From: Candidatus Gastranaerophilales bacterium
Lineage (GTDB): Bacteria; Cyanobacteriota; Vampirovibrionia; Gastranaerophilales; Gastranaerophilaceae
Assembly (NCBI GenBank): GCA_944323595.1
Contig: CALUTF010000019.1
Span: 1 to 33,954, forward strand
Direction: 5' to 3'
DNA length: 33,954 nucleotides
Position 1 is the first letter of the stretch. Each line of letters starts with the position of its first letter. A program made the translations under genes and the position numbers. This document shows, piece after piece, positions 13,844 through 29,372 of the stretch. The notes beneath the pieces were generated by a model that worked only from the letters and a program-made list of their open reading frames with translations, did not search any database and was not told the origin of the DNA.

Positions 13844-15238
13844 TTGAATAAGAAGTATTATTTTATAGCAATAGGCGGAGTCGGAATGAGCGGGCTGGCA
13901 AAATACTTGCTTGAACAGGGATGTGAAGTCAGCGGTTCTGACATTTGCGACAGCAAATATGTTCAACAGTTAAGAGATTTAGGCGCAGTTATCCATATCG
14001 GACACAGCGCAGAAAATGTACCTGATAATTGTGTTGTAATTGCAAGTACAGCAATACGTGCAAACAATCCTGAAATTCTCAGAGCAAAAGAATTAGGTCT
14101 GCCGATTTACCACCGTTCTGATTTGCTTGCGGAAATTTCACGCGGCGGAAAATTTTTCATAGGATATGCGGGAACTCACGGTAAAACTACAACAAGCGGA
14201 CTTGCATCTTATGTACTGGAAAAAGCAGGTCTTAATCCGTCATTTGTGGTCGGCGGAATAGTTCCGGAAATTTCAACAAACGCACAATATCGCAGCGGAA
14301 AATATTTTGTAGCTGAACTTGATGAAAGTGACGGTACAATTGTCAAATATTCACCGGATACTGTTGTGATTAATAATCTGGAAGCTGACCACCTTGATTT
14401 TTATAAAGAAGGTTTGTCTGCTATTCTGGATACATTTGAAAAATTTCTTTCCGGTTTGAAACCTGATGCCATAATTCTTGCAAATAATGACAGTGACGGC
14501 GTTGAAGAATTAATCGGAGGATGTTCTACATTAATCCCTAATCATATATGTTCATACGGTTTGAATGAAGCGGACTACACTGCAAAAAATATAGTGTACG
14601 GAGAAGATAGCACAACTTATGACATCTATTACAAAGATGAATTCCTTACAGATATGAAAATCATTCTAAAAGGTGTACATAATGTTTATAATTCACTTGC
14701 TGTATTTGCAAGCCTGCATCAGGATGGCGTAGATATTAATCTTATTAAGCCTCATTTTGCAACATTCAGCGGTATGGGCAGAAGATTTCAGAAAGTAGGA
14801 GAATTCGGGGGCATCTCACTCTATGATGATTATGCACACCACCCGACAGAAATAAAAGCTACTCTTTCAGCGGCATCTTCATTTTCAAACCATCGTGTAA
14901 TTGCAGTATTCCAACCGCACAGATACACAAGATTAAAAAGTTTGTGGAATGAATTTTTAGACTCTTTTGACGGAGTGGATAAAGTTATTGTAACAGATGT
15001 ATATGCGGCAAGCGAAGACTCTATCGACGGTATAAATTCCGAAAACTTTACAACAGAACTGCAAACACGGGGAATTCCATGTGAATACATTGCAGGCGAT
15101 ATGAAATCCGTAGCACAACAGCTATACCCTGAATTAAAATCAGGAGATGTTGTAATCGGACTCGGTGCGGGAACTATTACAACACTTGGAAAAGAACTGT
15201 TACAACTTGATAAGGAGATGGAAAAAGTTGCTGGTTGA
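13844..15238 (+). CDS. murC: UDP-N-acetylmuramate-L-alanine ligase MurC
   Basis: MurC adds L-Ala to UDP-MurNAc using ATP, the first step in building the stem peptide. The 464-residue protein starts with the MurC-type nucleotide site FIAIGGVGMSGLA (7-19), has the Mur-ligase P-loop GTHGKTTT (110-117), and shows DDYAHHPTEIKATL and FQPHRYTR, both typical of MurC. The start is TTG at 13844 with AGGAAA 8 nt upstream; the protein begins properly just before the GGxGMSG motif, and no better codon is available. It is the first gene of a compact operon, and murB begins inside its 3' end. Confidence 0.97.
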   Translation: MNKKYYFIAIGGVGMSGLAKYLLEQGCEVSGSDICDSKYVQQLRDLGAVIHIGHSAENVPDNCVVIASTAIRANNPEILRAKELGLPIYHRSDLLAEISRGGKFFIGYAGTHGKTTTSGLASYVLEKAGLNPSFVVGGIVPEISTNAQYRSGKYFVAELDESDGTIVKYSPDTVVINNLEADHLDFYKEGLSAILDTFEKFLSGLKPDAIILANNDSDGVEELIGGCSTLIPNHICSYGLNEADYTAKNIVYGEDSTTYDIYYKDEFLTDMKIILKGVHNVYNSLAVFASLHQDGVDINLIKPHFATFSGMGRRFQKVGEFGGISLYDDYAHHPTEIKATLSAASSFSNHRVIAVFQPHRYTRLKSLWNEFLDSFDGVDKVIVTDVYAASEDSIDGINSENFTTELQTRGIPCEYIAGDMKSVAQQLYPELKSGDVVIGLGAGTITTLGKELLQLDKEMEKVAG

Positions 15239-16118
15239 AGAAAATTTTGACGTCACAAGGCTGACATCGTTTAAATGCGGCGGGAAGATTAAAAAGGTTA
15301 TATTTCCCGAATCCGTGGAAGAATTTGTACAGGTATTAAAAGACTATCCTGATGCAAAAGTTTTCGGCAACCTTACAAATACTCTTGTTTCATCAGACGG
15401 ATATTCAGGTACAATCATCCTGACAACCAAAATGACAAACTTCCGTTTTAACGGAAACAAAGTTGAAGCAGAATGCGGTTTAAAAGGTGCAAAGCTTTCT
15501 CAGGCTGCAGAAGAAAAAGGGTTGAGCGGACTGGAATTTATGATAGCATTCCCAGGAACAATAGGCGGGGAAGTTTTTATGAATGCCGGCGCACACGGAC
15601 AAAATATTGCCGGCTGTTTTGTGGAAGCAAAGTGCTACAATCCGGAGTCCGGCGTTATAACAATGAAAAAAGACGACATGAATTTTTCTTACAGAACCTC
15701 TGTCTGCCAGACAAAAAATTTGATTGTTCTAAGCGCTGTATTTGAACTTCAACCGGCATCAGCAGAGGATATAAAAGCAAAAATGGATGAAAATCTGCAT
15801 TTCAGAAAAACCCATCAACCGTCGCTTACCCTCCCGAATTGCGGAAGCGTTTTCAGAAATCCTGAGGGAAATTCCTCAGGCAGGCTGCTTGAACAGGCAG
15901 GAGTCAAAGGTTATACATCAGGAGGTGCCAGAGTTTGGGAGAACCATGCAAACTTCATTATAAATCAAGGCGGCTCTTCATCTGATATTTTGAATGTCAT
16001 TCAAAAAATGAGAAACAGCGTGAGAGAAAAGTTTAATATAGAACTAAAACCGGAAGTAAGATTTCTCGGTGATAACAGTAAAGAGGTAGAAATATGCAAA
16101 GATTTGAAAATCATATAG
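15228..16118 (+). CDS. murB: UDP-N-acetylenolpyruvoylglucosamine reductase MurB
   Basis: MurB is an FAD enzyme that reduces the MurA product to UDP-MurNAc with NADPH. I set the start at the TTG at 15228, which overlaps murC by 11 nt and has AAGGAG 10 nt upstream; a longer frame from 15165 would merely run through the murC coding sequence. The 296-residue product shows AFPGTIGGEVFMNAGAHG (108-124), SYRTS with R156, GSVFRNP with the proton-donor S207, and PEVRFLG with E276, the expected active-site residues. The SGGARVWENHANFI stretch (231-244) follows the catalytic Ser region. The usual FAD-loop GxGSN appears as GNLTNTL. Confidence 0.95.
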   Translation: MLVEENFDVTRLTSFKCGGKIKKVIFPESVEEFVQVLKDYPDAKVFGNLTNTLVSSDGYSGTIILTTKMTNFRFNGNKVEAECGLKGAKLSQAAEEKGLSGLEFMIAFPGTIGGEVFMNAGAHGQNIAGCFVEAKCYNPESGVITMKKDDMNFSYRTSVCQTKNLIVLSAVFELQPASAEDIKAKMDENLHFRKTHQPSLTLPNCGSVFRNPEGNSSGRLLEQAGVKGYTSGGARVWENHANFIINQGGSSSDILNVIQKMRNSVREKFNIELKPEVRFLGDNSKEVEICKDLKII

Positions 16119-17044
16119 ATAAGAATGCAAAAATAGCTGTATTATGCGGCGGGATGTCTTCTGAAAAAGAAATTTCAATGCGTTCCGGTAAAGGCTGCTA
16201 CGAAGCATTAAAAAGATTAGGCTTTAATAATGCCGAACTGGTTGTAGTCGACAGAAATATTGCAGAGACTTTAAAAAACGGAAAGTACGATTACGCCTAT
16301 AATGCCCTGCACGGCAAATATGGTGAAGACGGCTGTATACAGGGTCTACTTGAAATCCTCCAGATTCCATACACAGGCTGCGGGGTTATGGCAAGTTCTC
16401 TTTGTATGAACAAAGAATATACAAAAAGAATTCTTGCGACCTGCAAAGATATTCCGCTGATTAAATCAGTTTTTGTAAGAAAAGGTGAAGATGTTGTTGA
16501 GGCTTGCAAAGATTTAACATATCCATTAATAACAAAACCTGTATGCGAAGGGTCCAGCTTCGGGATGACTAAGGTAAATTCGCCCGAGGAATTGAAAGCC
16601 GCGTATGAAGAAGCCGCAAAATATAATGATGACGTTTTAATAGAAGAATTTATCAACGGATTTTTTGTAACCGTCGGCGTGCTTGAATATGAGGGTAAAA
16701 ATTTTGCCACAGAAATTCTTGAAATCATCCCTAAAAATGAATGGTATGACTTTGAAGCCAAATATACAAAAGGAATGTCAGAATTTATTCTTCCGGCAGA
16801 ATTGGATGAAGAAACTACAAAACTGGTAAAAGAAATTTCGGTAAAAGCCCACGAAACTGCAGGCTGCAGAGGCGTTTCACGTGTAGATTTTATGATTAAG
16901 GATAACAAACCTTATTTTCTTGAAATCAACACTTCTCCCGGAATGACTGAAACCAGCGATTTACCGGCACAATCAAACGCTATGGGCATAGATTATGACA
17001 ATCTTGTGTTACTTATAATGAACAGCGCAGGCTTAAATAAATAA
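16094..17044 (+). CDS. ddl: D-alanine-D-alanine ligase
   Basis: Joins two D-Ala molecules with ATP to give the dipeptide end of the peptidoglycan stem. The 316-residue protein has an ATP-grasp fold: LCGGMSSEKEISMRSG (17-32), HGKYGEDG (73-80), the EGSSFGMTKV loop (152-161), YDFEAKY omega loop (218-224), and the metal-binding end FLEINTSPGMT. The last Tyr of the omega loop (Y224) matches the residue that sets D-Ala preference; Phe there gives D-Lac ligases, so vancomycin-type depsipeptide synthesis is not expected. It starts at ATG 16094, inside murB by 25 nt, with GAGG about 9 nt upstream. Alr at 27002 would supply its substrate. Confidence 0.96.
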   Translation: MQRFENHIDKNAKIAVLCGGMSSEKEISMRSGKGCYEALKRLGFNNAELVVVDRNIAETLKNGKYDYAYNALHGKYGEDGCIQGLLEILQIPYTGCGVMASSLCMNKEYTKRILATCKDIPLIKSVFVRKGEDVVEACKDLTYPLITKPVCEGSSFGMTKVNSPEELKAAYEEAAKYNDDVLIEEFINGFFVTVGVLEYEGKNFATEILEIIPKNEWYDFEAKYTKGMSEFILPAELDEETTKLVKEISVKAHETAGCRGVSRVDFMIKDNKPYFLEINTSPGMTETSDLPAQSNAMGIDYDNLVLLIMNSAGLNK

Positions 17045-17919
17045 TGGATGAATTCGAAAACAATCAGGAATGTCCGACTGAAGAAGATATTCTTGAAGCA
17101 AAAAAAGTTAAAAAAATTCAACGGGAACGCCAGATTCGCAAAGGCAGAATGTGGCAGGAGCGTATCCGCGGGATTTTTCGTTTTTTTGTAAGTATAGGGA
17201 TTATTTGTCTGTTAATATTTCTGGTGGACTTGCCGCAATGGTATCTGGATAAATCGTCTTTCAAAGTTTATAATCCGGATAATGTCGGCATTGTCGGGAA
17301 TAAAATAGTTCCCTCCGCAAAAATTTTCAAAGTTTTACATGATATAGATGTCCCGAATGTTCCGATGTTTCTGTTTAGAACAGGGGAAATTCAAAACAGA
17401 ATTCTTAAACTCGGACCTGTAGACGAAGTCTATATCAGACGTTATGCTTTTCCTGCCAGACTTGATATCATAGTGAGAGAAAAAATTCCGTCAGTCGTAA
17501 TAGCTCCTGATGAAAAGGTTCAGCCTGTTGCATTCTTTACAAAAGACGGAACGCTTGTAGGACGTGAATATCTCCCTCTCCCGCAGGAATATAAAACAAT
17601 AAAAGTACTCTCCTACGGAAACAAAGGCGATGACTACCATAAATGGAACAAAGAAAGAATACAAAAAATTGAAAAAATTGTCAGATACATAGAAACCTAC
17701 TCAAAAGAACCTGTTCTCTATCTGGATTTCAGAAACCCGAATGATATTTACGCTGAAATTAAAACAGTAAAAATCCGTCTTGGAAAACTTGATGAAACTG
17801 TTTTTGAAAGAATTGAACGGATACCGTCAATTCTGCCGCAGGTAAAACTTATGGATACAAAAATTAAGTATCTGGATTTGAGCTGGGAAAAAGTTAATTA
17901 CATAAAACTTGATGAATAG
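17044..17919 (+). CDS. ftsQ: Cell-division protein FtsQ/DivIB
   Basis: A 291-residue bitopic membrane protein: a basic cytoplasmic tail (1-44), one transmembrane helix (about 46-62, FFVSIGIICLLIFLVDL), then a POTRA-type domain (FKVYNPDNVGIVGNKIVPSAKIFKVL, with later RRYAFPARLDIIVREKIPSVVI) and the FtsQ domain. It belongs to the divisome and links septal wall synthesis to the Z ring. Its ATG overlaps the ddl stop codon (TAATG), implying coupled translation. The order murC-murB-ddl-ftsQ is the classic division/wall cluster, but ftsA and ftsZ do not follow; nadE does. Sequence is diverged, as usual for FtsQ, so the call rests on architecture and position. Confidence 0.88.
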   Translation: MDEFENNQECPTEEDILEAKKVKKIQRERQIRKGRMWQERIRGIFRFFVSIGIICLLIFLVDLPQWYLDKSSFKVYNPDNVGIVGNKIVPSAKIFKVLHDIDVPNVPMFLFRTGEIQNRILKLGPVDEVYIRRYAFPARLDIIVREKIPSVVIAPDEKVQPVAFFTKDGTLVGREYLPLPQEYKTIKVLSYGNKGDDYHKWNKERIQKIEKIVRYIETYSKEPVLYLDFRNPNDIYAEIKTVKIRLGKLDETVFERIERIPSILPQVKLMDTKIKYLDLSWEKVNYIKLDE

Positions 17920-17934
17920 CAGGAGTATAAAATT

Positions 17935-19347
17935 ATGAACATAGCGATTGCACAAACTAAATATAAAACAGGGGACTTTGAATTTAATTTCAATTCCATA
18001 ACTGAAAAAGTTAACCAAACAGATGCAGACCTTGTCATATTTCCGGAAGCTGATTTGTATGATATCGGCGGCAGAGATTTGCTTTTAGACAGCAAAGTTC
18101 AGGAATGCCAGATAAAATTTTATGACAGACTTGCACAAAAACAATTTGACAAAGCAATTCTCATAGGTGATATTCTAATCCGGAATGGCGAGGTAATAGT
18201 TTCAGAAGACGGATTTTTTGATATTAACGGTGCAAAAGTCTACGTTGCTGATGAATACAGCGATGATGTAATTTGTGATTTATACGTTCTTGCAAAAAAC
18301 AGTTATTTTGCCATTGACAAATATACAGAATTTGTTGAAAGCATTAATACAAATAATAATTTTGTTTATATTAACGCTCTCGGAATAGCAGATTACAATG
18401 TATTTGCTGGCGGAAGTTTTGCCAAAAACAGAGAAAACGAAATTACAATGCAGGCACCTCTGTGCAAAGAATTTATCAGCAAAGTTGATTTTTCTGCTCC
18501 TACAGAGTTCAAAGAAGTACCGATGGAACAGCAGGTAATTGATGTAACAACATTCGCACTTAAGGAATACTGTGAGAATACAGGTATTAAAAAAGTTGTG
18601 CTTGGGCTATCAGGCGGGATAGACAGTGCGCTGACTGCTGCACTTGCAGTAAAAGCTTTAGGCTCTGAAAATGTATTCGGTATAATGATGCCGAGTATGT
18701 ATTCTTCTGACGGCAGTGTTCTGGATTCTGTAGAACTTGCAAACAACCTCGGAATAAGGACCGAAAAACATTCTATTACGCCGCTTTTTGAAAACTTTAT
18801 GGAAAAAATTGCGCATGAGAAAAAAGGAGATTTAGCGGAAGAAAATTTACAGGCAAGATTAAGAGCCTTAATCTTGATGTTTTTCTCAAACCGCGGGGGA
18901 TATCTTCTGCTCTCTACCGGCAACAAATCAGAAAGCGCAATGGGATTTGGAACGCTTTACGGCGATCTCGCAGGCGGCTACAATATGATTTGTGACCTGA
19001 CAAAAACAAACGTATACAAAGTTGCAAATTATATTAATAAAGACGGAGAAATTATTCCGCAGGCTATTATTGATAAAGCACCATCTGCAGAACTTCATCC
19101 GGGGCAAAAAGATCAGGACAGACTTCCGGAGTACGCAATTCTGGATGATATTATTGAAATGTATTTTGAACAAAATATTCCGGCAGAAGAAATTTACAAG
19201 AAATACAATAAACCGGTTGTTGACGAAGTTATCAAAAAAACATACAGAATGGCTTACAAACGCAAACAATGCTGCATAGGAACACGCCTTACGGAACGCT
19301 CATTCCTTGCAGGGATTGATTTGCCAATTGTTCAAAAATTTTATTAA
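17935..19347 (+). CDS. nadE: NAD+ synthetase with degenerate glutaminase domain
   Basis: NadE converts deamido-NAD to NAD+ with ATP and ammonia. The synthetase domain (about 200-470) is intact: LGLSGGIDSALTAAL with the P-loop at 226-231, LQARLRALILMFFSNRGGYLLLSTGNKSE, and ELHPGQKDQDRLPEY. The N-terminal 185 residues look like the nitrilase-type glutaminase domain (FPEADLYDIGGRDLL with E38, and NFVYINALG followed by GGSF). It is shortened, however, and where the catalytic cysteine motif ICED is expected it reads YVADEY, so Cys is replaced by Ala105. The Lys of the triad also lacks a clear counterpart. The total of 470 residues is well below the usual glutamine-dependent enzyme. It probably uses free ammonia. 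It follows ftsQ by 15 nt; AGGAG precedes the start. Confidence 0.92.
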   Translation: MNIAIAQTKYKTGDFEFNFNSITEKVNQTDADLVIFPEADLYDIGGRDLLLDSKVQECQIKFYDRLAQKQFDKAILIGDILIRNGEVIVSEDGFFDINGAKVYVADEYSDDVICDLYVLAKNSYFAIDKYTEFVESINTNNNFVYINALGIADYNVFAGGSFAKNRENEITMQAPLCKEFISKVDFSAPTEFKEVPMEQQVIDVTTFALKEYCENTGIKKVVLGLSGGIDSALTAALAVKALGSENVFGIMMPSMYSSDGSVLDSVELANNLGIRTEKHSITPLFENFMEKIAHEKKGDLAEENLQARLRALILMFFSNRGGYLLLSTGNKSESAMGFGTLYGDLAGGYNMICDLTKTNVYKVANYINKDGEIIPQAIIDKAPSAELHPGQKDQDRLPEYAILDDIIEMYFEQNIPAEEIYKKYNKPVVDEVIKKTYRMAYKRKQCCIGTRLTERSFLAGIDLPIVQKFY

Positions 19348-19368: not shown

Positions 19369-19403
19369 AAAGATGATTACCTTTTCTACGGGTAATCATC
19401 TTT
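19369..19403 (+). terminator. Long perfect hairpin after nadE
   Basis: A 13-bp perfect stem (19369-19381 with 19391-19403) and a 9-nt loop, 22 nt after the nadE stop. It ends in TTT only, so it is a weak intrinsic terminator or a 3'-end-stabilising structure. Confidence 0.7.
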
Positions 19404-19562: not shown

Positions 19563-20114
19563 TTAACCGTTAATATTCTTGTATTTATAGCTCAACATAC
19601 TGTATGTATCTGAATCTGAAGATGATGAATCATCTCCGTAGAATGTTGACATATTAGTTGCCATCTGATGGTTAAATTTATCAACCATTTCCTGCTTTGA
19701 AGCATCAACCTGATATGCTGAAATTTCTGCATTTGTAACATATCCGTCATGGTTTGTGTCGATGGCATCAAAATTTTCAAGCACCATAGTAAGCGTATCA
19801 GAGGACATGCCGGACATCATTAGTTGTGATAAATCCTGTCTTGACAGTCCTTTTGATGACATCTGGTTTGTGAGATTAGTCATTTCTGTCGGACTTATGA
19901 TGCCGTCCTCATCTTTATCAATATTATTGAAGTTAGTTTCAAGATAAGACGCAAATGTCTGATTTAGATATAAATTATTTTTAGAATCACCTCTTGCCTC
20001 GTTAATTCCCTCCAGTGTGACACCATCCGGAGAAAGCTGTGAAAGATATGAAAATGTATTGGTAAGCCCTGAATAAAATCCGGCAAATAGTGATGAACCA
20101 TTATAATTAGCCAT
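19563..20114 (-). CDS. EF-hand calcium-binding protein
   Basis: A 183-residue acidic, Ser/Asn-rich protein with two canonical EF-hand loops: DKDEDGIISPTE (66-77) and DTNHDGYVTNAE (119-130), each with Asp/Asn at positions 1, 3 and 5, Gly at 6, a hydrophobic residue at 8 and Glu at 12. They flank a helical segment (LTNQMSSKGLSRQDLSQLMM). There is no classical signal peptide or membrane segment, so location is uncertain. The Gly/Asn/Ser N-terminus and the Ser/Asp-rich tail (DDSSSSDSDTYSM) look disordered. The role is unknown; calcium sensing or a calcium-stabilised surface protein are options. It has a strong Shine-Dalgarno site (AGGAGG, 6 nt before ATG) and its own terminator. Confidence 0.85.
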   Translation of the reverse strand: MANYNGSSLFAGFYSGLTNTFSYLSQLSPDGVTLEGINEARGDSKNNLYLNQTFASYLETNFNNIDKDEDGIISPTEMTNLTNQMSSKGLSRQDLSQLMMSGMSSDTLTMVLENFDAIDTNHDGYVTNAEISAYQVDASKQEMVDKFNHQMATNMSTFYGDDSSSSDSDTYSMLSYKYKNING

Positions 20115-23879: not shown

Positions 23880-25217
23880 ATGATTAAAGCAATAGTCGGT
23901 AATCTAAGGTTTTATACATCATTAATAGCGGCAAAGGCAGCATTTCTCGGGATTAAACTTCTGAACAAATCCTCAGGAACATCTTTTGCAGGAATGCTGG
24001 TGCTGAAACTTTACCCTGATTTTTTACGCAAATGCCCTGATTATATAAAAGAAAATATTATCACTATTACGGGAACTAACGGGAAAAGTACAACCTCCGG
24101 CTTGATTGCGCATATTTTAGAAAATGCCCATCAAAAAGTTATTCATAATGTACGCGGCGCCAATATGCTCACAGGAATAGCGAATGTTTTCGCTCTGAAT
24201 TTGTATCCTTTCAAACGTTATGATTATGCGGTATTAGAATCTGATGAAGCCTATCTGACAAAGCTTTATGACTTTATAAAATCAGACTATCTTGTCGTAA
24301 CAAATCTTTTCCGCGACCAGCTTGACCGTTACGGCGAACTGAACACAACCGCATCGTATATCCGGAACGCCATTGACAAAAATAAAAATCTGAAACTTAT
24401 ACTGAATGCGGATGACCCGTTAGTTGCAAATTTCGGACATAACAGACAGGCGGTGTATTACGGGTTTGAAGATGTAGTATTTGAAGAGGCACAAAAAGAT
24501 TCAAATGCACCGGAAGAAGCGTTCAACTGTATCTGCGGCAAGCCGCTCCGGTATGAAAAACAATTTTTCGCACAACAAGGACACTATTATTGCTCCTGCG
24601 GATTTAAACGTCCCGAATGTGATTATAAAGCTGATGCCAAAATTCACAAAGATTTTTCCATAATTACAGTAAGACATAACGGTATTATTTCTGAATTTAA
24701 GATAAAACTTGTCGGGTTATACAATGCCTATAATGCACTTGCTGCAATCGCTTTAGGATTTGAAAACGGTCTGAACCAGACAGAAATTCAAAAAGCTCTC
24801 GATACATACAAATCAATCTTCGGAAGAACGGAGCGCAGAATAATCAAAGGTCATTCAACCCTTATTCAGCTTATAAAAAATCCGACAGGCGCAAGTGAAG
24901 TTCTTAAAACCGTTGATTTGAAATCAAATATAGTAATAGCAATCAACGATAATTATGCTGACGGCAGAGATATTTCATGGCTCTGGGACAGTGATTTTGA
25001 ACAATTACAAAATGCAGAAAAACTTGTCATCACATCCGGTACACGTGCAAATGATATGGCCACCAGACTTAAATATGCAGGCATTGCTCAAAACAGGATT
25101 ACTATTGAACCTGATATAAAACAGGCTATTGAAAAAGCTTGCGTTAACGGTGATAATGTAACTATTCTGCCGTCATACACAGCTCTTTTAAAAATAGACA
25201 AAATGAAATTAAAATAA
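23880..25217 (+). CDS. murT: Lipid II isoglutaminyl synthase subunit MurT (Mur ligase family)
   Basis: A 445-residue Mur ligase of the MurT type. It has the P-loop GTNGKST (65-71), the conserved DNYADGRDISWLWD (357-370) typical of the C-terminal DUF1727 domain, and an inserted cysteine ribbon (C217, C219, C238, C240) in the central domain, the zinc element unique to MurT. MurT activates the D-Glu of lipid II with ATP, and its partner GatD supplies ammonia, giving D-iso-glutamine. GatD normally lies directly next to murT, but here pdxJ follows after 15 nt. The cysteine pairs are spaced C-x-C, not the usual C-x2-C. The start has no Shine-Dalgarno site; an 8-codon mini-ORF (23842-23868) precedes it. 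Confidence 0.9.
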   Translation: MIKAIVGNLRFYTSLIAAKAAFLGIKLLNKSSGTSFAGMLVLKLYPDFLRKCPDYIKENIITITGTNGKSTTSGLIAHILENAHQKVIHNVRGANMLTGIANVFALNLYPFKRYDYAVLESDEAYLTKLYDFIKSDYLVVTNLFRDQLDRYGELNTTASYIRNAIDKNKNLKLILNADDPLVANFGHNRQAVYYGFEDVVFEEAQKDSNAPEEAFNCICGKPLRYEKQFFAQQGHYYCSCGFKRPECDYKADAKIHKDFSIITVRHNGIISEFKIKLVGLYNAYNALAAIALGFENGLNQTEIQKALDTYKSIFGRTERRIIKGHSTLIQLIKNPTGASEVLKTVDLKSNIVIAINDNYADGRDISWLWDSDFEQLQNAEKLVITSGTRANDMATRLKYAGIAQNRITIEPDIKQAIEKACVNGDNVTILPSYTALLKIDKMKLK

Positions 25218-28133: not shown

Positions 28134-29372
28134 ATGGAAAATTTTGATATAGGGATAATCGGAGCAGGTCCGGCAGGGTATACTGCAGCATTTCACGCAA
28201 AATCAAAGGGGCTGAGCGTTGTAATTTTTGAAAAAGACTGCACAGGCGGTGTCTGCCTTAATAAAGGATGCATCCCGACTAAAACAATTCTCCATGTATC
28301 TGAACTCTATCAGGAAATGCAAAATTGTGCAGATTTAGGTCTGTCAGTTGAAAACACAGGCGTTGATTATAAAAAAATTTTAGAACATAAAAATCAGGTT
28401 GTTGAAAAATTAAGAAAAAATCTTGAACTAGCCCTTAAAAACAGCAAAATTCAGGTGATACATTCCGAAGCTGAAATAGTTGATTCAAACACAATAACAG
28501 CAAACGGAGAAACTTTCAAGTGCGGGAAAATCATCGCTGCAACAGGAGCAGAACCAAAAGAACTTAAAGGATTACAGTTTGACCACAAATTCATCCTTAA
28601 CTCGGATGACATATTAAATTTAGAAGAACTGCCCAAAAGTATACTTATTATTGGCTCCGGCGCTATCGGAACAGAATGGGCAAGAATTTTTTCAAACTTC
28701 GGTGTAGAAGTTACTGTTATTGAATTTGCCGGACACCTTTTACCGCTTGCCGACACTGAAGTTTCAAAACGGCTTGAACGGATGTTCAAAACTAAAAAGA
28801 TTAAATTTTATACCGGAACAACTGTTGAGAGAATTGACGGGAAAAATGTTCTGCTCACAAACGGAGAACAGCTTAATCCCGAAAAAATTCTTCTTGCGGT
28901 CGGAAGAAAACCTGTTTCAACAGAAAAAATCAGCGGGGTGACATATATCGGAGATGTATGCGGCTCTATTCAGCTTGCCCATTTCGGCATAAAACAGGCA
29001 ATAGCAGCGATTGACGGAATTAAATTTGATGAAAATCTTGTGCCGTCGGTAGTATACGGCTACCCTGAAATAGCGTGGATAGGAAAACGTGAACAGGATT
29101 TGCAGGAAGGCTCATACAGAAAATCAAATCTGCTTATCTCCGCACTCGGTAAAGCACACTGCGATAACTGTACAGACGGTTTTATTAAAATCCTTTCACA
29201 GGATGACAAAATAATCGGAGCCCACATAGTTTCTAAAGAAGCATCAGCCTTAATTCATCAGATTTTAATAGCTATGCAGAATAATATTACCATTGATAAG
29301 CTGAAAGAAATCTGTTTTGCCCACCCGACCTATTCAGAGGGAATTTTTGAGAGCTTGTGGAGGTTTTCATAA
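28134..29372 (+). CDS. Short dihydrolipoamide dehydrogenase-like flavoenzyme
   Basis: A 412-residue two-dinucleotide-binding flavoprotein. IGIIGAGPAG (7-16) binds FAD, and the redox disulfide is C41/C46 (GGVCLNKGCIPTK). ILIIGSGAIGTEWA binds NAD, and FAHPTYSEG near the C-terminus holds the active-site His/Glu pair of lipoamide dehydrogenases. It is about 50-60 residues shorter than normal; the clearest loss lies between GRKP and GDV, which are about 12 residues apart and not the usual 35 or so. Lipoamide dehydrogenase (E3) is the likeliest role, because lipA starts directly at its stop codon. Related disulfide reductases remain possible. No E1, E2 or GcvH gene is in view. Confidence 0.85.
   Translation: MENFDIGIIGAGPAGYTAAFHAKSKGLSVVIFEKDCTGGVCLNKGCIPTKTILHVSELYQEMQNCADLGLSVENTGVDYKKILEHKNQVVEKLRKNLELALKNSKIQVIHSEAEIVDSNTITANGETFKCGKIIAATGAEPKELKGLQFDHKFILNSDDILNLEELPKSILIIGSGAIGTEWARIFSNFGVEVTVIEFAGHLLPLADTEVSKRLERMFKTKKIKFYTGTTVERIDGKNVLLTNGEQLNPEKILLAVGRKPVSTEKISGVTYIGDVCGSIQLAHFGIKQAIAAIDGIKFDENLVPSVVYGYPEIAWIGKREQDLQEGSYRKSNLLISALGKAHCDNCTDGFIKILSQDDKIIGAHIVSKEASALIHQILIAMQNNITIDKLKEICFAHPTYSEGIFESLWRFS

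Follow-up and report, generated by a model that had tools for sequence, protein, structure and literature searches.

A two-domain NAD(+) synthetase of the Gastranaerophilales that appears to keep its glutaminase domain without the catalytic triad

The nadE gene and its neighborhood

The window, a stretch of 33,954 nucleotides from a Candidatus Gastranaerophilales genome, carries a nadE gene for NAD(+) synthetase at 17935..19347 on the forward strand. The gene begins with an ATG at 17935, preceded by a good ribosome site (AGGAG), and runs as an uninterrupted frame of 470 codons to 19347. Its 470-amino-acid product joins a degenerate N-terminal glutaminase domain to a synthetase domain, and it is the sole NadE found in the genome (G000; 98.48% complete, 77 contigs). 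The only other match (L002, E 0.001) was rejected as a second NadE because its sequence looks like the tRNA thiolase MnmA. The three closest named matches, at 87, 84, and 83% identity, are on contigs titled Candidatus Gastranaerophilales.

The synthetase domain (18523..19344, +) was called complete in the preliminary description, and its SGGIDSA, GNKSE, LYGD, and PSAELHPGQ motifs are all intact. The Pfam model NAD_synthase (PF02540) covers residues 206–445 with 239.9 bits against a cut-off of 21, and the general nadE model TIGR00552 gives 199.2 bits against a cut-off of 63.65. With a synthetase domain above the curated cut-offs and the ATP-binding SGGxDS motif (here SGGIDSA), the protein qualifies as an NAD(+) synthase. 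The NCBIfam model for the glutamine-type enzyme, PRK13981, scores 406.2 bits, below its equivalog cut-off of 479. The closest solved structures are the two-domain enzymes 5kha, 4f4h, and 3n05, and the domain ends in a C-terminal extension common to such enzymes, which can be aligned almost to its end with 4f4h and with 5kha (residues 512–542 of the latter). The C-terminal loop and alpha18 of the synthetase are given as the signature of two-domain NadE by De Ingeniis et al. (PMC3376133), who describe this C-terminal stretch as a glutaminase contact; alpha18 itself was not located in the window protein.

Genes for murC, murB, ddl, and an ftsQ-like protein (13844..17919, +) lie directly upstream, overlapping or nearly so, and the gene order first described, with nadE in fifth place, is correct. 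A hairpin at 19369..19403 (+; −17.5 kcal/mol, z −5.0), 21 bases past the nadE stop, is the probable end of the operon. A promoter scan returned fewer sites than in shuffled sequence, and the pattern scan also did not list this hairpin. Just downstream of the operon, on the opposite strand, a small protein with two EF-hand-type calcium motifs is encoded at 19563–20114. Elsewhere in the window, a MurT-type ligase (23880–25217, +; MurT_C and Mur_ligase_M) is found with its partner GatD not adjoining, and a GATase_3 protein fitting GatD is located on another contig (C3:88289–88870, L197). A dihydrolipoyl dehydrogenase homologue of 412 amino acids (28134–29372, +) is followed by lipoyl synthase; its match to the family model is split in two, which looks as though a segment were absent after residue 262.

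Loss of the glutaminase triad

The N-terminal domain (17935..18522, +; approximately residues 1–196) looks like a pseudo-glutaminase of nitrilase fold. There is no match to the Pfam CN_hydrolase model in the first 200 residues of the protein. The domain had been described as short: 14 intact relatives from the order have a median length of 268 residues, and the window domain, at 198, is about 70 shorter. The Glu–Lys–Cys triad of the intact relatives sits in the motifs IFPE (Glu), K-x-LLP-x-Y (Lys), and ICED (Cys). The window enzyme still has the equivalent of the catalytic Glu, E38 (codon 18046..18048, +), which by a pattern count is present in 12 of 67 sequences of the same lineage, termed type I here. 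The segment with the catalytic Lys is deleted, and the short type-I forms listed likewise show a gap at the Lys position.

At the nucleophile, the ICED strand is replaced by YVADEY, in which A105 (codon 18247..18249, +) is at or adjoining the site of the lost Cys. The preliminary description had read this as a change from Cys to Ala. A profile alignment to 14 intact type-I domains (prob 99.2, E 9e-19) places a gap over ICE, so the substituted residue is ambiguous while the absence of Cys at the site is certain. The same loss extends to the relatives: none of the 67 type-I sequences has Cys at this position, which is occupied by Ser in 50, Asp in 10, Ala in 6, and Thr in 1. The profile alignment also indicates that the dead domain lacks two stretches, one of 13 residues around K-x-LLPFY and another of about 25 that comes after the nucleophile.

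In human and Mycobacterium tuberculosis NadE, the ammonia tunnel is lined by the YRE loop, which also connects one active site with the other (PMC6946656). By our own alignment, this loop appears to fall inside the deleted 13-residue stretch around the Lys. With triad states read from one alignment each, the dead domain has lost the Cys, the Lys, and a loop of regulatory function, and most relatives no longer have the Glu either.

Distribution and number of losses

Enzymes missing part of the triad, called dead here, make up 91 of 161 distinct full-frame NadE sequences of the order, a set that leaves out frames under 400 amino acids and contig-edge fragments (L087–L090). All three residues are present in 70 and none in 64; only Glu remains in 17, Glu and Lys in 7, and only Lys in 3. 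At the level of genomes, 139 in the family have a match and 125 could be classified (the rest have mostly long-type genes or fragments); in this sample, which is uneven because genomes entered it by their match to the window protein, 71 genomes have only a dead NadE, and the other 54 have one or more intact copies. Outside the order but in the same phylum, the triad is kept in 90 of 90 NadE sequences (the 30 best matches and 60 further ones from the same list).

The short type-I form is known from 68 distinct sequences with full-length frames, spread over at least 13 genera and contigs of several assembly projects. L045 and L072 were left out of the 67-sequence set, and L081 was left out of the tree; the triad state of L045 (all gaps) is unsure because the sequence is cut at a contig edge. 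Placing the 75 dead type-I rows in one clade gives a log-likelihood 11.3 higher (p-AU 0.668), and a scheme of four separate type-I losses was dropped in favor of this better tree. Genomic context points the same way. Among loci with at least 1.5 kb upstream, ftsQ adjoins nadE in all 33 dead type-I cases (27 of the short form and 6 of a long form), and murC is present in 32; the divergent dead enzyme of genus g32 (L306) has the same four genes upstream. None of murC, murB, ddl, and ftsQ was found upstream of 13 intact type-I loci from sister families, several of which have less than 4 kb of flank. The shared mur–ftsQ place, where testable, and the tree test favor a single event, and the loss in the type-I lineage probably happened once.

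Type-II enzymes are longer and are encoded elsewhere in the genome, behind ftsQ in none of 34 loci. Dead and intact type-II forms are found within one genus in g2, g3, g8, g22, g25, g35, and g41. The type-II tree calls for 11 changes, at least 5 of them forced by well-supported branches. Grouping all 16 dead type-II rows into one clade is rejected (p-AU 3.5e-5), and with it a common loss. The type-II NadE of the order has lost the triad repeatedly. Cases known from a single sequence, such as L094, where only the Cys is changed (to Ser), could be errors.

Some genomes seem to capture intermediate or alternative states. Genome G074 has two type-II NadE genes (L099 and L179), one intact and the other dead through a change of Cys to Gly, which looks like a stage between duplication and loss. 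In genus g11, some species have a dead type-I enzyme (L012, L015, L019, and L024), and others have only an intact type-II enzyme encoded elsewhere (L082 and L083), a pattern suggesting that one type of NadE has replaced the other. In four genomes over 90% complete (G058, G130, G160, and G162), no NAD synthetase was found beyond weak matches that are probably MnmA-like; these bacteria may have a different route to NAD, or their assemblies may lack the gene. A further difference is seen on the synthetase side, at position 339 (window 18949–18951) near the LYGD motif, where 67 of 67 dead enzymes have Gly and 103 of the 104 intact type-I enzymes have Cys. The Gly is possibly an adaptation of the synthetase to free ammonia.

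Fold and selection on the dead domain

An AlphaFold model built from a 14-row alignment gives the N-terminal domain a pLDDT mostly of 75–92, with dips, and the synthetase half mostly 30–80, the low confidence of the latter coming from the shallow alignment. Compared by VIA-align, the N-terminal domain (model residues 1–188) matches nitrilase folds with Z about 16, including 7elf (Z 16.1, rmsd 2.8, 182 residues). The whole model aligns to 5kha over 400 residues (Z 20.1, rmsd 8.9) and to 4f4h over 373 (Z 19.8, rmsd 3.5). A nitrilase fold is therefore predicted to be retained in the domain fused to the synthetase.

The dead domain is also under purifying selection. Median dN/dS in the dead enzymes is 0.128 for the N-terminal domain and 0.060 for the synthetase half (25 usable of 130 pairs), compared with 0.084 and 0.049 in intact enzymes (8 usable of 49 pairs). 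Selection on the domain is relaxed about twofold yet still firmly constraining. The suggestion that the old domain is being kept agrees with these values and with the retained nitrilase core. No two-domain NadE that had simply dropped its N-terminal domain was found in the set; one family genome (G028, 84% complete, 4% contamination) has a 246-amino-acid single-domain NadE instead.

A retained scaffold, or a new task

The reading we favor, and hold to be likely, is that the window gene encodes an ammonia-dependent NadE that keeps its former glutaminase domain as a scaffold. A working synthetase would amidate deamido-NAD with free ammonia, which would enter the synthetase site directly from solvent. 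The synthetase would still need the emptied domain in order to fold, assemble, or close, and the domain would be kept for that reason; the C-terminal extension by which two-domain enzymes hold the glutaminase is still on the synthetase. A steady supply of ammonia in the gut may have made glutamine hydrolysis dispensable, with the change taking place once in the type-I lineage of the murC–murB–ddl–ftsQ cluster and several more times in type II.

A less likely account gives the domain a new job. Here it would bind a ligand or partner, such as a nitrogen or redox signal or a division or wall protein, through a patch formed by C114–D115, N122, and Y124, and would regulate the synthetase. All 67 dead type-I sequences have C114, D115, L119, Y124, G159, S161, and F162 unchanged, and 66 have N122; C114 and N122 mark the dead clade and are not features of the intact relatives. 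The invariance of C114, D115, and Y124 is stronger than mere filler would need, and a further function is possible. The constant place of nadE behind ftsQ (33 of 33) would also suit a link to division or wall synthesis, but it may mean only co-transcription, and many of the invariant residues belong to the shared core or to the stretch that joins the synthetase, as a scaffold predicts too. The PII protein is a partner of some NadE enzymes. No PII was found by Pfam in this genome, which removes PII regulation as a candidate here and counts against a regulatory role. It is more doubtful still that the whole of a broader scenario holds, in which the order switched the nitrogen of NAD synthesis from glutamine to free ammonia many times, silenced the glutaminase in place each time, and rebuilt the type-I domain around a new invariant Cys–Asp/Asn/Tyr patch serving as a sensor of a ligand or partner and as a gate on the synthetase.

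Source of the nitrogen

Two-domain NadE can also use free ammonia (PMC6946656), which is the simplest nitrogen source for the dead enzyme. From its sequence, the window NadE very probably does so. The Amt transporter was not found in the genome by Pfam. Amt is present in 11 of 146 family genomes, with no clear link to the state of NadE; three of the 11 (G081, G089, and G127) carry a dead enzyme.

It is highly improbable that a separate glutaminase acts in trans on the dead NadE, in the manner of the remote subunit called type R by De Ingeniis et al. The genome does have two unlinked, stand-alone proteins of the nitrilase family (L146 and L147), both with an intact triad, and these could in principle supply ammonia, but by our reading they look like general amidases, and the docking site would already be taken by the dead domain. 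In genus g10, a dead NadE of the same kind is the only one, and CN_hydrolase gave no match at E ≤ 1e-8 in any of 6 genomes (95–99% complete). This excludes a nitrilase-type partner in that genus, and such a helper is therefore rejected as the general answer; the comparison covers nitrilase-type glutaminases. As a separate observation, only two class-I glutaminases (PF00117) were found in the window's genome, a small number for 2 Mb: a PabA/TrpG-like protein (L195) and PyrG (L196). No PF00117 match fits GuaA or CarA.

There is very little chance that an active glutaminase site has been rebuilt with C114 or another Cys. C114 (codon 18274..18276, +) had been raised as a residue that might occupy the active site, and its invariance would suit such a role, but it aligns past the nucleophile elbow and just before the next strand (model residues 116–119), and on this alignment it was rejected as the nucleophile. 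There is also no equivalent of the Lys and the Glu is usually replaced, so a working triad with C114 is very unlikely. Decay of the gene or domain, or an assembly artefact, can be practically dismissed: the named relatives are metagenome assemblies and dN/dS is about twice as high in the N-terminal domain as in the synthetase half, but dN/dS is far below 1 in both halves, which rejects decay, and full-length frames recur across genera and assembly projects.

Implications and comparison with known systems

A two-domain NadE is taken to mean the use of glutamine, and in the scheme of De Ingeniis et al. all characterized enzymes of this kind (type F) do use it (PMC3376133). For a whole clade and several more lineages in this order, the rule very probably fails. 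The repeated losses, which put intact and dead enzymes side by side in one genus, amount to natural replicates and make two questions testable: the level of free ammonia that lets a cell do without glutamine channeling, and the reason that a fused glutaminase domain stays in place instead of being dropped. No published report of such a NadE was found among open-licence PubMed Central papers. The enzyme is best described, from comparison of the sequences, as a recurrently evolved new form of a known enzyme that would resemble vertebrate carbamoyl phosphate synthetase (CPS1) in principle.

The nearest relatives are the two-domain glutamine-dependent enzymes (type F NADS; PRK13981; 5kha, 4f4h, and 3n05), from which the window NadE descends. 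The domain order, synthetase, nitrilase fold, and C-terminal extension are the same. Unlike these enzymes, it has no catalytic Cys, Lys, or YRE loop, its N-terminal domain is about 70 residues shorter, and it scores below the PRK13981 cut-off; by the triad and the loop, it would not be a functional member of the group. With the single-domain ammonia-dependent enzymes (type N; Helicobacter pylori 1xng and E. coli), it shares the predicted use of free ammonia, and Gly at position 339 is also found in H. pylori 1xng. It differs from them in keeping a conserved N-terminal domain of about 196 residues and the C-terminal extension, and its synthetase is closer to those of the two-domain enzymes. The two-subunit systems with a separate glutaminase (G) subunit (Thermus, type C/R) are alike in that ammonia might come from another protein. 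In contrast to these, the window NadE is still fused to its domain and has no adjacent G subunit, and genus g10 lacks a nitrilase-type candidate.

The closest parallel in principle comes from a different enzyme. In human CPS1, Ser294 replaces the glutaminase Cys, the domain is retained, and ammonia comes from outside (PMC4655335). Vertebrate CPS1 and the window NadE would thus both be amidotransferases with a retained, Cys-less glutaminase domain, the use of ammonia being a prediction for NadE. The glutaminase class and the synthetase of CPS1 are unrelated to those of NadE. In NadE, moreover, loops have been excised along with the catalytic residues, and the loss recurs within one bacterial order.
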